Positions 16,846-24,568 of a DNA stretch of 24,706 nt are shown here, one piece after another (positions within the stretch are counted from its first letter, which is position 1; each line of letters begins with the position of its first letter). Under the pieces are notes generated by a model. The model searched no databases, was not told where the DNA came from, and worked only from the letters and a program-made list of their open reading frames with translations. The DNA lies in the IMG/VR virus record IMGVR_UViG_3300032050_007091, positions 1 to 24,706 of that record; one strand, 5' to 3'. The DNA comes from a virus. Made by a program: the position numbers and the translations under genes.

Positions 16846-16988
16846 AACTATATGAATCAAAAGAGTGGCTATATAGAAGATATATAGTCCAAAAAAAGAA
16901 CATAAAAGAAATAGCAGAAGAGGCTGGATGCTCTCACATGACCATACAGAGATACCTAGAAAAGTTTGGATTAATTAAAAAAAGATGA
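16842..16988 (+). CDS. 48-residue HTH DNA-binding protein
   Basis: ATG 16842 overlaps the resolvase stop (ATGA) and its own stop overlaps the next start the same way, so it tiles perfectly between two genes. The protein begins MKLYESKEWLYRRYIVQKKN, followed by IKEIAEEAGCSHMTIQRYLEKFGL: a complete homeodomain-like HTH with the helix-turn of recombinase or sigma-like regulators (IAEEAGCS, then TIQRYLEKFG). It consists of almost nothing else. It may be a small transcription regulator or a DNA-targeting helper for the resolvase. Confidence 0.78.
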   Translation: MKLYESKEWLYRRYIVQKKNIKEIAEEAGCSHMTIQRYLEKFGLIKKR

Positions 16989-17671
16989 TATACTCACATA
17001 AAGTTTTTCATATAGAAGGCACAGATGATCGTAGATCAAAGTTGGCCCAAAACATTAATGAATATCTATCTGGAGACTCTACTCTACTAGATACACCTAC
17101 AATTAAAATATCCAATATAGAAGAGTACGACAAGTTTTTACTAGAGAATAAAAACTTTGTGCCAGACACCAGTGGATACGAGTTGGATGGATTAAGTGGA
17201 TGGAAGATGGGCGAAATAGGAATATGGGCCAGTAATTGGACTGCCTGGATTAACTTTTTAAAATCTGACCACGAGTATTTAATATTGATGGAAGACGACA
17301 TTGTTCATAATGAAAATTTTATGCCACTTATAAACTATTATGTATCCCAGTTACCAGAAAACTGGGACATATTTCATGCCTTTAGCCCAGCAGATCAATT
17401 TCCTAAATATAACGACACACACGATATTGGTGCCAGAGATATATGTAAAGCATACCAAGATTGGTCTTGTTTATGTTATATTATCAATAAGCGTGGCGCT
17501 AAAAAGTTGTTAATGAACGCCCACTTGTTTAATCTTCCGCTAGATTGGTACATGTTTAGACAGCAAGATATATTCAATGTTTATACACTAAAGCCAAAGT
17601 CTGAGTTTCCATGCACACTGATGAGCCTAGATTCAACATTTCAATTAAGCGAAACCAGGAAAATATTATGA
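16985..17671 (+). CDS. GT25-family-like glycosyltransferase
   Basis: The 228-residue protein opens with KVFHIEGTDDRRSKL, like the start of GT25 enzymes. It then has the family hallmark GEIGIWASNWTAWINFL (76-92) and YLILMEDDIVHNENF (98-112), where Glu 103, Asp 104 and Asp 105 form the acidic metal/nucleotide-sugar site. The usual Ser-His after G-E-x-G is Ser-Asn here. A later CYIINKRGAKKLL segment also fits the family. GT25 enzymes transfer sugars (often galactose) from nucleotide donors. In a phage the acceptor could be modified DNA bases, virion proteins or host surface glycans; the sequence does not decide. It is coupled to the mini-HTH gene and to a second glycosyltransferase. Confidence 0.82.
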   Translation: MIYSHKVFHIEGTDDRRSKLAQNINEYLSGDSTLLDTPTIKISNIEEYDKFLLENKNFVPDTSGYELDGLSGWKMGEIGIWASNWTAWINFLKSDHEYLILMEDDIVHNENFMPLINYYVSQLPENWDIFHAFSPADQFPKYNDTHDIGARDICKAYQDWSCLCYIINKRGAKKLLMNAHLFNLPLDWYMFRQQDIFNVYTLKPKSEFPCTLMSLDSTFQLSETRKIL

Positions 17672-18456
17672 TACCTAAAATTATATGGCAAACTTATAAA
17701 GAAGAGATAAATAATTTACCAGACTATGCAGTTCAGGCTATGTCTAGTTGGAATGAAAAAAATCCAAATTGGGAGCATAGGTATATGAATGATATGGAGT
17801 CTAGAGAATTTATAAGATCTGAATATGGTGAAGAGTATGCAAAAATATTTGACTCTGTGCCAGTTCCAGTTATGCGTGGGGATATTTGGAGATACCTGGT
17901 GATGTATAAATATGGTGGAGTCTATGCAGACCTGGACACGATTTGCCTTAAGCCAATAGAGTCTTGGCTTAAAGAAGATCACAAGATGGTAGTTTGTCCA
18001 GAAAACAACTTGCACTTTGTTCAATGGATATTTGCAGCAGAACCAGGTCACCCAGTTATAGGATCTGTTATTGATTTAATGATGGAAAGGCTAAAAAATC
18101 CAGACTATTCAATAAAGCATTTTGTACATATACACACTGGTCCAGGGGTATGGACAGATGGAATATACAAAGCTTTAGACATAAAAAAAGAAAAACATGG
18201 CTGTGGCATGGAGAATAGAGACGGAATTTGTGAGCATGTCTCGCTTATATCTGATTCTATAGAGTATAATGGATATATGAAAACAAAAAGTCTTGGGTTC
18301 TATTGTTACACTGGTCCAGAGGGTGATGAAGATTCTTTTTATGGATGGCGTATATTTCACGACAAAGCAGTCAAGCATATATACGGAAGTCAAAACTGGA
18401 ATGACGGAAGATATATACAATGGATAGAAGACGACTTGGTTAAGGGGATAAAATGA
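17668..18456 (+). CDS. GT32-like glycosyltransferase with DXD motif
   Basis: ATG 17668 overlaps the previous stop (ATGA) and has AGGAAA upstream; the frame is open to 17611 only within the previous gene. The 262-residue product begins IPKIIWQTYKE, typical of GT32 (OCH1/capsular) enzymes, then VMRGDIWRYLVMYKYGGVYA and the DXD motif DLDTI (Asp 88, Asp 90), followed by MVVCPENNLHFVQ and HTGPGVWT. DXD glycosyltransferases use Mn-bound nucleotide sugars. Having two different sugar transferases in a row suggests they act in sequence on the same acceptor (inference). Acceptor unknown. Confidence 0.87.
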   Translation: MIPKIIWQTYKEEINNLPDYAVQAMSSWNEKNPNWEHRYMNDMESREFIRSEYGEEYAKIFDSVPVPVMRGDIWRYLVMYKYGGVYADLDTICLKPIESWLKEDHKMVVCPENNLHFVQWIFAAEPGHPVIGSVIDLMMERLKNPDYSIKHFVHIHTGPGVWTDGIYKALDIKKEKHGCGMENRDGICEHVSLISDSIEYNGYMKTKSLGFYCYTGPEGDEDSFYGWRIFHDKAVKHIYGSQNWNDGRYIQWIEDDLVKGIK

Positions 18457-21527: not shown

Positions 21528-21536
21528 TGATATAAT
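21528..21536 (+). promoter_or_regulatory. Extended -10 promoter after terminase
   Basis: TGATATAAT is a perfect extended -10 element in the gap behind the terminase gene. No good -35 box is seen 17 bases upstream (CCGTTT at 21508-21513), which extended -10 promoters can tolerate. It would start transcription near 21543, just before the 844-codon gene. Confidence 0.55.
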
Positions 21537-21550
21537 TATCCTGGTAATCA

Positions 21551-24085
21551 TTGTATTACCTAGGAGAATGGGAAATCAATAAATTAAAAGTAATATTAGG
21601 TTCATTTCTATTAATTGCCTTCCTATTTTGTATAGGTCAGCAGTCAGCTTACGCTACAGATAATGGATCTGGTTCAGAACAGGTTATAGTAAGCCCTGCC
21701 CAACAGGCAGTTAATACGGCTTTATCAACTGCTACTACAGAGGTTCAGCAGGCAGTAGACGCTACAAATAATGCCACCATAGCAATATCAGAGGCACAAG
21801 CAGAGTTACCATCTGCACAAACAGCTGTTTCAGCACTTAGCCCAGTAGTTACAGAAGCCCAGTCAGCAGTAAGTAATGTTCAGTCTGCAATAAATACAAT
21901 AACCTCAATTGATTTAAACTTAAATCCAATTGATCAAAGTTCTCAAACAGTACAGGATGCAAAAACTACTGTTTCAACTGCACAATCAGCAATATCTAAT
22001 ATTAACACCACATTGGCACAAACCGAAATCAATCAATTAACTACAGAAAGAACACAGGCATCCACACTTCAAGCAACAGCTCAGACAGAGCTAACTCAGG
22101 CTAACACTGCTATTGATAACGCACAAACAGCAGTAAATAATTTACAGGCCACCATTGGAACAACAACCAACGTCTTGGCTGGAGTAGATGACGCTGGAAT
22201 AAGAATGAACTTACCGTTTGGAATGCAAATGGGTGGAACTGTTTATAATGATGTATATGTAGGGTCAAATGCAACTATCACATTTGGCGTAGATCAAGGT
22301 TGGGTATATTATCAAACTCCAGACGCTCCTTCGGTTTCTATTGCTGGTTGGGACTGGACAACCTGGAGCACAGGAACTGGAATTACATATTCAACAACTG
22401 GAACAAGTTTAGATATTGCCTGGGACTTAAGACCATTTCCACAACAAGATGCTTCTACACAAATGGTTCAAATAAGGTTCAATGCTGACGTAAATCCAAA
22501 TGATGGTGCCTGGATGGCTAATGTGACTGCTGTTGGCCCAATACCAGATCAGGCAAGATTTAATTATAGAGAATCAACTAATGGAACAATAATTCCAATA
22601 GCAGATACTAATACTGGTTCGGGATTTTCAGGTCAAATAAGTCAAGGTTCAGCATTTACTCCATATGTGGATCCAAATACATCTTCTGTTCAGGCTGCCG
22701 TGGATGCAGCAAATGCAGCAATTACACAATTAAATCAAAGCCTTACACCAGTTGTTAGTCAAAATGCTATAAACAATTCAGCTTTATCAACTCTGCAGTC
22801 AAACATAAACTCTTTAAACAATACAATAAACTCTGTTTCATCCACAAAAAACTCTTTGCAGTCAACATTAAATACCAGAGCCTCAACATTAAATACTGCT
22901 ATTAATAGTAACATTCCAACCCCAGCACCCATACTTGCAGAGCCAGTCGTTGATGGCAATACGGTTATTATTTCACCAGAGTTGCCAGAAGGATACACCG
23001 CCAACACTTGGTTTTATCAGGTAATAACAAATGATCCTAATGCAGAAAATCCATATGGGGGTGGAACGTATAATACAACTGGTGCCCCAGAGTCTATTGA
23101 GTTAACTGGTTTGACAGAAGGCGCTACATATACAATTAGAGTTGCAAATTGGTCTGGTCCAGTAAGTCAATATACCGAAACAGTTATATCTATACCTACA
23201 ACACAAAGTTCAAACCTAACTACTGGTGGATCAGTTGTTGATATGCCAGTAGATCAACCACCAGTCGAAGAACCACCTGCCGAAGAACCACCTGCCGAAG
23301 AGCCACCTGCTGAAGAACCACCTGCTGAAGAACCACCTGCAGAAGAGCCACCCGCTGAAGAACCACCTGCAGAAGAGCCACCAGCCGAAGAACCGCCAGC
23401 TGAAGAACCACCAATGACTGAAGAAGAAATAATTTCAGCTGTAGAAGATTTAGTTAGTGATGGAAACTTAACTACATCAGAAAGCGAAGCAATACTAGAC
23501 GCTTTGTCTGCTGACGGTGAAATAAGTTCAGAAGAAGTTTCAGACTTATCAGATGCATTATCTTCTGATGGTGATTTTACAGAGGCGGAGAAAGATTTAG
23601 TAGCGGAAGCACTAATAGAATCATTTGATGGAGAAGCTGTCTCTGCAGAAGCAATTAAAGAATCTGGACTTGAGTTTAGCGATTTACCACCATCAACACC
23701 TGTAGAAGTTAGAAGAGACGAAAATGGAAATGAGGTTGTTATAGTTGCAGCAGTTGCTTCAGCTTTAGAAAATCTAGCAAGTCCAGCTGCTCTTATAAGT
23801 GGGATTGGCAATTGCATAAATCCAGTTGATGAAAATGATCCAAACTATGATCCAGATGCACCAAAATGTGAAATATTTACAGCATTATCAAATATTGGTG
23901 CAGACATGAGCACAGAAGAAAGAGAAGAAGCTACCGACATGATGGTGGCAACAGTTGTGGCAGCGGGTGCAGCAATAAATGCTGTCGCTGCAGCAGGAAC
24001 AACCACTGGAGGATCCACTAGCGGTGGGTCAGGTGGAGGAGGAGCCTCTGGCGAATCCAAGGGGGTAAGGAGAAGAAGACGATGA
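21551..24085 (+). CDS. Large secreted modular surface-type protein
   Basis: The product has 844 residues from TTG 21551; ATC 21575 with AGGAG (21562-21566) would give a shorter, cleaner signal peptide (NKLKVILGSFLLIAFLF, cleavage after AYA at 35). Modules, numbered from TTG: an Ala/Gln/Thr/Ser-rich helical region (45-205); a beta domain (about 213-375) with FGMQMGGTVYNDVYVGSNA, resembling adhesive G-x-Y-x-x-V-x-V motifs; a second helical region (378-455); an FN3-like domain (456-551); ten EEPP units (573-621); and three 18-residue DG repeats (635-688). A Cys-containing segment, a hydrophobic stretch (797-816), a Gly/Ser linker and five Arg (840-844) end it. It looks exported and anchored in the host envelope, or a virion decoration. 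Function unknown; superinfection blocking or adhesion are guesses. Confidence 0.78.
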   Translation: MYYLGEWEINKLKVILGSFLLIAFLFCIGQQSAYATDNGSGSEQVIVSPAQQAVNTALSTATTEVQQAVDATNNATIAISEAQAELPSAQTAVSALSPVVTEAQSAVSNVQSAINTITSIDLNLNPIDQSSQTVQDAKTTVSTAQSAISNINTTLAQTEINQLTTERTQASTLQATAQTELTQANTAIDNAQTAVNNLQATIGTTTNVLAGVDDAGIRMNLPFGMQMGGTVYNDVYVGSNATITFGVDQGWVYYQTPDAPSVSIAGWDWTTWSTGTGITYSTTGTSLDIAWDLRPFPQQDASTQMVQIRFNADVNPNDGAWMANVTAVGPIPDQARFNYRESTNGTIIPIADTNTGSGFSGQISQGSAFTPYVDPNTSSVQAAVDAANAAITQLNQSLTPVVSQNAINNSALSTLQSNINSLNNTINSVSSTKNSLQSTLNTRASTLNTAINSNIPTPAPILAEPVVDGNTVIISPELPEGYTANTWFYQVITNDPNAENPYGGGTYNTTGAPESIELTGLTEGATYTIRVANWSGPVSQYTETVISIPTTQSSNLTTGGSVVDMPVDQPPVEEPPAEEPPAEEPPAEEPPAEEPPAEEPPAEEPPAEEPPAEEPPAEEPPMTEEEIISAVEDLVSDGNLTTSESEAILDALSADGEISSEEVSDLSDALSSDGDFTEAEKDLVAEALIESFDGEAVSAEAIKESGLEFSDLPPSTPVEVRRDENGNEVVIVAAVASALENLASPAALISGIGNCINPVDENDPNYDPDAPKCEIFTALSNIGADMSTEEREEATDMMVATVVAAGAAINAVAAAGTTTGGSTSGGSGGGGASGESKGVRRRRR
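21562..21566 (+). promoter_or_regulatory. Shine-Dalgarno AGGAG that argues for an ATC start at 21575
   Basis: AGGAG lies inside the reading frame opened by TTG 21551. It has no in-frame ATG, GTG or TTG at a useful distance downstream, but ATC (21575) is 8 bases away and would start the protein directly at the basic N-region of the signal peptide (NKLK). Confidence 0.4.
23267..23413 (+). repeat. 15-bp tandem repeat coding for EEPPA (10 units)
   Basis: Ten EEPP blocks joined by Ala run without interruption inside the 844-codon gene. The units differ mostly at third positions (GAA/GAG, CCT/CCC/CCA/CCG, GCC/GCT/GCA), so the protein repeat is kept while the DNA has diverged. A rigid, extended acidic-proline spacer is the likely product, like wall-spanning stalks of bacterial surface proteins. 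Confidence 0.92.
23453..23614 (+). repeat. Three exact 18-residue DG repeats (54-bp period)
   Basis: Consensus S-[AS]-D-G-x-[ILF]-[ST]-x-x-E then a helix ending A-L. The Asp-Gly pairs start at residues 637, 655 and 673 of the 844-codon protein, an exact 18-residue spacing. A degenerate fourth copy (FDGEAVSAEA) follows. The D-G-x-h-S/T-x-x-E core looks like the second half of an EF-hand loop, so calcium binding is possible but unproven. Confidence 0.8.
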
Positions 24086-24252
24086 TGAAGATAATAAAGG
24101 ACATGATTGACCAACTTTGGACACTCCTTGGCATGTTTATCGCCTGGGTTGTCCTTGATGGCAGTGCAAAAACTGTGGTGGGTTATGCAATAGTGGGAAC
24201 AATAATAGCTTGGATAATCACATATCCAATACGCAATAGAGAGGAGGACTAA
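24082..24252 (+). CDS. Small two-span membrane protein, holin-like
   Basis: ATG 24082 (or 24085) overlaps the stop of the 844-codon gene and has AAGGAGAAGAAG (24067-24078) upstream. The 56-residue product has a short N-terminus (MMKIIKDMIDQ), a first hydrophobic helix (LWTLLGMFIAWVVL), a turn with DGSAKT, and a second (VVGYAIVGTIIAWIITYPI). It ends with a charged tail NREED. Two helices with a tight turn and charged ends fit a class II holin or an anti-holin; this is a fold-level guess. It is followed after 1 base by another small membrane protein gene. Confidence 0.68.
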   Translation: MMKIIKDMIDQLWTLLGMFIAWVVLDGSAKTVVGYAIVGTIIAWIITYPIRNREED

Positions 24253-24253
24253 T

Positions 24254-24568
24254 ATGGCAAAGAAAAAAGAAATTGATCTTACAGCAATCGATCCAGTTAC
24301 TGGAGAAGAAGTTATAGGATCATCAGCCGTAACTAATATTTGGAACATCCTTATGAGAATTGTCGCAGTTTTTGCGGCATCAGGACTTTCAGTAATTGGT
24401 GCAGGATCTTTAGTAGGAATTGACACAATGAAGGCGGTCATTCTTGCTGGTACACTTGGTGTTGCTACTGTAGTTGAAAAACTTGCAAGAGCATTCCTAG
24501 ATGACGGTAAATTATCTGCAACAGAAATCAATTCTGCATTTGCAAAAATTGATAAAAACGCAGAATAG
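24254..24568 (+). CDS. Holin-like membrane protein
   Basis: ATG 24254 follows GAGGAGG (24241-24247). The 104-residue product has a Lys-rich start (MAKKKEID), then two hydrophobic helices: WNILMRIVAVFAASGLSVIG (about 29-48) and MKAVILAGTLGVATVVEKLA (about 59-78). It ends in a charged amphipathic helix (DDGKLSATEINSAFAKID). Gly/Ala-rich paired helices and a soluble tail resemble phage holins. Together with the preceding 56-residue gene this could be a holin/anti-holin pair, but no endolysin is in the window, so lysis function is inferred only. Confidence 0.68.
   Translation: MAKKKEIDLTAIDPVTGEEVIGSSAVTNIWNILMRIVAVFAASGLSVIGAGSLVGIDTMKAVILAGTLGVATVVEKLARAFLDDGKLSATEINSAFAKIDKNAE

Follow-up and report, generated by a model that had tools for sequence, protein, structure and literature searches.

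Why does a phage encode, behind its terminase gene (TerL), a large protein that appears to be built for the surface of a cell? This question is raised by the window analysed here, a stretch of viral DNA of 24,706 nucleotides. The original prediction was that the infected cell displays this protein or, alternatively, that it decorates the virion, and was argued in part from the premise that capsid genes should follow the terminase.

Start codon and layout of the slot protein

Nucleotides 21551-24085 form a single open frame. The original assignment of this frame to a modular protein of exported type was correct, and a scan of viral contigs identified 186 that encode relatives, of which 80 were kept. 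The start, previously placed at the TTG at 21551 (844 aa), had to be corrected, as this TTG lies inside a leader hairpin and lacks a Shine-Dalgarno sequence. The sequence AGGAG at 21562-21566 constitutes a Shine-Dalgarno 8 nt ahead of an ATC at 21575; relatives with the same leader have ATT at the position of this ATC, and most others have a TTG start. Because of this spacing and of the ATT/TTG starts in relatives, translation probably begins at ATC 21575, giving a protein of 836 aa. ATC and ATT are very rare start codons in bacteria. An ATC (window, 21562-21577) or ATT (L003, L008, L108, L112, L114, L119, L120) start behind a good Shine-Dalgarno appears to be maintained despite changes in the outer part of the protein. 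We name the position directly before the small gene with two hydrophobic stretches (two-TM gene) the slot, and the large anchored protein encoded there the slot protein. The features of the region are:

21528-21536, + strand: extended -10 promoter element TGATATAAT, 47 nt upstream of the inferred start
21540-21564, + strand: 5' leader hairpin ending in the Shine-Dalgarno (folding z, covariation)
21575-24085, + strand: putative coding sequence of the surface-display protein (inferred ATC start, 836 aa)
21575-21655, + strand: signal peptide with hydrophobic core and small-residue site, cleavage predicted after AYA (residue 27)
21695-22150, + strand: first helical (coiled-coil) region (AlphaFold helices 14-165 of the mature part, pLDDT mostly >85)
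22193-22645, + strand: beta domain between the two helical regions (strands predicted, low confidence)
22676-22912, + strand: second helical region (AlphaFold helix 341-419)
22940-23209, + strand: FN3-like domain (Pfam fn3 E=0.027; Foldseek FN3 matches)
23246-23413, + strand: Pro/Glu stalk of ten EEPP units (Tandem Repeats Finder, motif count)
23432-23644, + strand: helical DG units (alignment of relatives, motif count)
23645-23935, + strand: conserved membrane-proximal domain with two Cys and a DMSxxERxxA motif, common to all slot proteins
23936-23995, + strand: predicted C-terminal transmembrane helix (mean 19-aa hydropathy 1.93)
23996-24082, + strand: Gly/Ser linker and five terminal Arg, predicted cytoplasmic tail (translation)
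24082-24252, + strand: two-TM gene, overlapping the slot gene by 4 nt, constant partner in the census
24254-24568, + strand: holin-like gene of the window clade (PHROG 443 holin only at E=0.013; best match phrog_26427)

The protein thus runs from a signal peptide through a coiled coil, beta domain, second coiled coil and FN3-like domain to the Pro/Glu stalk, helical DG units, two-Cys membrane-proximal domain, hydrophobic helix, Gly/Ser linker and five Arg. The claimed signal peptide agrees with the hydrophobicity of the N-terminal core (best 19-aa Kyte-Doolittle mean 2.13) and with a cleavage-type site between AYA and T. Signal peptides of relatives, judged likewise by hydropathy and cleavage-type site (some census starts cut into them), are conserved in kind and not in sequence. 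The hydrophobic segment, Gly/Ser linker and five Arg at the C-terminus were all present as described. Among 77 representatives of the slot family the most hydrophobic 19-residue segment of the C-terminus reaches a median hydropathy of 1.92 vs 1.20 in the interior, and in 77/77 at least two K/R occur within the last eight residues. The signal peptide, the C-terminal hydropathy and the basic end together predict a topology with the N-terminus outside and the short tail inside, and we infer that the slot protein is exported.

Of the parts in between, the two helical regions appeared in the AlphaFold model as long helices. The supposed adhesin-like beta domain is supported in so far as strands are predicted between them, but its pLDDT is only ~45. 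The best PDB sequence match of the window head had an E-value of 0.041; in our own reading this head may resemble nidogen-type domains. For the FN3-like domain, Foldseek retrieved single-domain FN3 matches with target TM-scores of 0.65-0.75 (the query being a predicted model), but the fn3 (PF00041) score of 15.1 bits is below the Pfam gathering cut-off of 25. The stalk, a tandem repeat also in the DNA, indeed has ten EEPP units, yet only nine are EEPPA and one is EEPPM; a PF02095 extensin match corresponds to this repeat and was rejected. What had been reported as three exact DG repeats are four DG-containing units, ~18-20 aa apart, that are identical neither in protein nor in DNA. PADLOC/NCBIfam matches to LmuB, JetC and SMC fall in the helical regions, reflect coiled-coil similarity and were discarded. 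In the Foldseek structure search the outer part gave essentially FN3 matches only and the C-terminal part gave none.

Constant anchor and exchanged outer parts among relatives

The window carries the features of the slot family, i.e. DM[ST]xxxRxxA, a C-terminal hydrophobic helix, a basic tail and a two-TM gene directly next to it. A set of 24 representatives aligned over nearly the full length with 62-73% identity. In the close family, the beta domain is the most conserved part and contains a dense run of invariant residues. No beta domain was found in tail fibres across all fetched loci; in these loci it was seen in slot proteins only, and the matches outside complete slot proteins were all cut by a contig end or belonged to the frameshifted L128. 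In this locus (L128:10400-12717) the slot gene is split by a frameshift inside an EEPPA-type repeat, which may reflect slippage, decay or an assembly error.

A census based on the two-TM gene alone yielded 80 loci, 76 of them with enough upstream sequence and the other four cut by contig ends. What precedes the two-TM gene at each of these 76 is a gene for a large protein that shares the C-terminal anchor. When loci retrieved with the slot protein are counted too, the tally across all sets is 173/173; nine of these were one letter off the regular expression and were accepted by eye. The outer parts behave differently: among the 77 representatives the anchor was detectable in 85% of pairs, and only 10% of pairs could be matched over half or more of the outer part. 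These outer parts form 23 groups, 16 of them singletons, a number that is approximate given low-complexity stretches and filtering. Relatives whose TerL is 81-83% identical to that of the window already have a different outer part, joined at the same junction. EEPPA is not conserved either, the stalks of relatives being of the DTEPV, IIDEP, PTDI or Ser/Glu-rich type. Among ten hand-picked slot proteins, on which the head types rest, Pfam recognised PA14 in L144, L159, L172 and L263, and a SUEL lectin in L252 just below its cut-off. These patterns suggest that recombination replaces the outer part and leaves leader, signal peptide and anchor in place.

The slot family is carried by a large group of uncultivated phages. 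No match to the window protein was obtained among 50,697 phage records, and the two-TM protein and slot protein L246 had none in cultured phages; slot protein L235 gave one partial match there (33% over 9%). A search of GTDB genome contigs with the slot alignment revealed no host relative, and we found no description of the slot family in the literature. Many of the related contigs presumably come from freshwater metagenomes, judging by their sample numbers.

Genomic position, promoter and leader hairpin

The premise that capsid genes should follow the terminase does not hold in this lineage. Streptomyces phage Patelgo (Stanwilliamsviridae) has a TerL with 63% identity to that of the window, and the two have their genes in the order DnaB, primase, DnaE, RecA, Cas4, RuvC, TerS, TerL. 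The distance from TerL to the portal and capsid genes is ~50 kb in Patelgo and ~35-39 kb in three contigs of 92-110 kb, where these genes form part of a separate structural module. Since the replication module closes with TerL, and the genes for portal, capsid and tail are 35-50 kb off, the slot is not a displaced capsid position. Unlike the window, Patelgo has small unrelated genes and tRNAs after TerL, and no homologue of the slot, two-TM or holin-like protein was detected in it. WhiB genes are present in 10/12 related contigs; like the relationship to Streptomyces phages, this suggests that the host is an actinobacterium.

The slot gene is found downstream of TerL and, in many loci, immediately follows a gene for another exported Ig-like protein. 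This second protein (336-566 aa, with a basic helical C-terminus; L063:4250-5857, L056:4872-5879, L002:8492-10102) is encoded between TerL and the slot gene or close by; it had no family match and no relative in host genome contigs. In the same region some relatives encode a subtilisin-like protease (Peptidase_S8) with a signal peptide (L048:13535-14584). A small Cys-rich lipoprotein encoded behind the two-TM gene (L079:8694-8915) is also found in the metagenome-assembled Actinomycetia phage DSL-LC01 and in Caudoviricetes sp. MW202675; within its first 45 kb, DSL-LC01 has no slot protein. Elsewhere in the window, glycosyltransferase-like genes (16985-18456; 17611-18456 matches Gly_transf_sug) separate RuvC from TerS and could alter host surface sugars or phage DNA, and positions 1-2274 encode a tail fibre that contains FN3 domains and ends in a Peptidase_S74 intramolecular chaperone.

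Common to most slot leaders are an extended -10 promoter, a 5' hairpin and a start codon other than AUG. The motif TGNTAWAAT is present upstream of 44/78 slot genes vs 95/1172 other genes. In the window alone its count is not above chance, and a scan for consensus -35/-10 promoters did not list the slot promoter, which has no -35 element. On the coding strand of three long relatives TGNTATAAT occurs 19-23 times vs ~5 expected, and many of these sites precede structural and fibre-like genes. As the motif also precedes such genes, the slot gene is probably expressed together with them, i.e. late. Directly behind the promoter, a stem-loop that ends near the Shine-Dalgarno folds with z < -1 in 39/46 distinct slot leaders, compared with 31/140 control leaders and 12/64 promoter sites of the long relatives (some of the latter being slot or small-heat-shock-like genes); these z values, based on mononucleotide shuffles of 32-nt stretches, are a ranking and not a probability. 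Nine pairs of the stem show two-sided changes. The hairpin might either protect the mRNA or control translation.

The slot-type promoter motif, together with a strong 5' hairpin that encloses a G-rich Shine-Dalgarno, also precedes a gene at L091:13503-13567 (G001 53503), with counterparts at G002 85165 (reverse orientation) and G003 71765; hairpin z is -3.5 to -4. By eye, this gene looks like one for a small heat-shock protein (Hsp20), and a hairpin over its Shine-Dalgarno would be as in an RNA thermometer.

Proposed display and masking, and comparison with known systems

Several of the results presented above bear on display. A signal peptide, C-terminal helix and basic tail are found family-wide and some outer parts are of PA14 or SUEL type, and these argue for the predicted display on the infected cell; the supporting argument from position has fallen away. 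Surface display as such is likely, judging from the sequences, and is much better supported than its purpose. For that purpose we favour receptor masking by the head, since the exchange of non-homologous heads resembles that of the Llp proteins of T5-like phages; to display and masking combined we assign a probability of roughly 0.4. Heads of sugar-binding type (PA14, SUEL lectin), the family-wide signal peptide and anchor, the constancy of this anchor beside exchanged outer parts, and the dedicated promoter and leader hairpin count for this combination.

The model we propose is as follows. A lineage of large actinophages would share a surface-display slot, of which this gene is the copy in the window. 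The protein would be made in the infected cell, probably alongside the virion genes, and exported via the Sec route, and the conserved C-terminal helix and basic tail would hold it in the host membrane, perhaps together with the co-encoded two-TM protein. The stalk and coiled coils would span the wall and the head would reach outside. Heads are swapped from phage to phage, whereas the leader, the signal peptide and the anchor remain. The most likely target of the head would be a ligand on the cell surface (probably a glycan or a protein), the binding of which would mask the receptor; superinfection would then be prevented and progeny would not stick to the dying cell or its debris, as for T5 Llp. 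Probable late expression suggests a product that comes late for superinfection exclusion and better fits debris protection, or a role in lysis or the virion.

Three other functions were weighed against masking, and are ranked here. The displayed head might instead be an adhesin for other cells or particles, so that neighbouring hosts adhere to the infected cell, or to what lysis leaves of its envelope, and progeny reach new ones. The layout, with a head between two coiled-coil helices, is like that of Gram-positive wall-spanning adhesins (PMC7726212), PA14 heads are known in yeast adhesins (PMC6218569), and probable late expression would fit; however, planktonic hosts are dilute, and head swapping is expected equally under masking. 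We regard this function as rather unlikely. Still less probable is a part in lysis, in which the slot and two-TM proteins would weaken the envelope, bridge it or make it ready for lysis, with the head gripping a component of the wall or surface layer. Many relatives have, behind the slot, the two-TM gene and genes for a lipoprotein, another membrane protein and a CHAP endolysin, and the 4-nt overlap of slot and two-TM genes is frequent across loci; in many other loci, however, the endolysin is on the opposite side of the slot, and a freely exchanged outer part is not expected of a lysis factor. The least probable function, that of a fibre or decoration reaching the particle despite the hydrophobic N-terminus, has in its favour the promoter motif shared with structural and fibre-like genes and the frequency of FN3-like folds in phage tail proteins, but is opposed by a signal peptide and an anchor helix that persist around changing middle parts, by the place of the gene outside the structural module and by the structural PHROG matches, none of which is significant over a folded domain (head/tail families at E 0.00024 or worse) and which are weak and lie chiefly in the helical regions.

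We consider it an even bet that the shared leader, the constant frame of signal peptide and anchor, the two-TM partner and the wholesale-exchanged, in part lectin-type heads constitute a dedicated display cassette. If so, it would be a phage-run variable surface-antigen system on the infected cell, and the slot and two-TM proteins would possibly be a membrane-anchoring pair not described before. The phages that bear it occur widely in viral metagenomes, and the phage collection searched contains no close cultured relative of theirs. Their constant anchor and exchanged heads suggest that each phage puts binding proteins of its own on the cell it infects; this would influence which phages can share a cell and how progeny escape debris. 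A testable claim follows, namely that head type should follow receptor type, and the anchor plus two-TM gene provides a sequence marker for finding the function in metagenomes.

The non-homologous Llp proteins of T5 and BF23 block the phages' own receptors, exclude superinfection and presumably reduce phage inactivation on debris (PMC4728585). Like the slot protein as we picture it, Llp is phage-encoded, made in the infected cell and active at its surface, and unrelated versions, each matching a receptor, are exchanged between related phages (PMC4728585). Llp, however, is a lipoprotein, whereas the slot protein has 836 aa, an SPase I-type signal, a stalk and a C-terminal helix, and its masking role is proposed by analogy. 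Ltp of phage TP-J34 is likewise phage-encoded and exposed on the surface of a Gram-positive host, where it excludes superinfection, but is a lipoprotein from the lysogeny module of a temperate phage (PMC3952083); no lysogeny genes were seen in the window. In Gram-positive polymer-adhesin proteins, e.g. PrgB of pCF10 and antigen I/II, the head likewise sits between two helical segments, which together build a coiled-coil stalk; these proteins project from the wall and are encoded on mobile elements (PMC7726212). They have an LPXTG anchor where the slot protein has a membrane helix and Arg tail, and there is no sequence match. One defining feature of each family was looked for: the translation has no LPXTG sorting motif before the C-terminal helix, the helical region scored 21.7 bits against SEC10/PgrA (TIGR04320), far under the curated cut-off of 70 and reflecting coiled-coil similarity only, and no lipobox Cys is present at the end of the signal peptide (GQQSAYATDN). 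Because each feature was lacking, the window protein is, by sequence, not a member of the LPXTG, SEC10/PgrA or Llp/Ltp families, yet it may work like Llp or like the wall-spanning adhesins.
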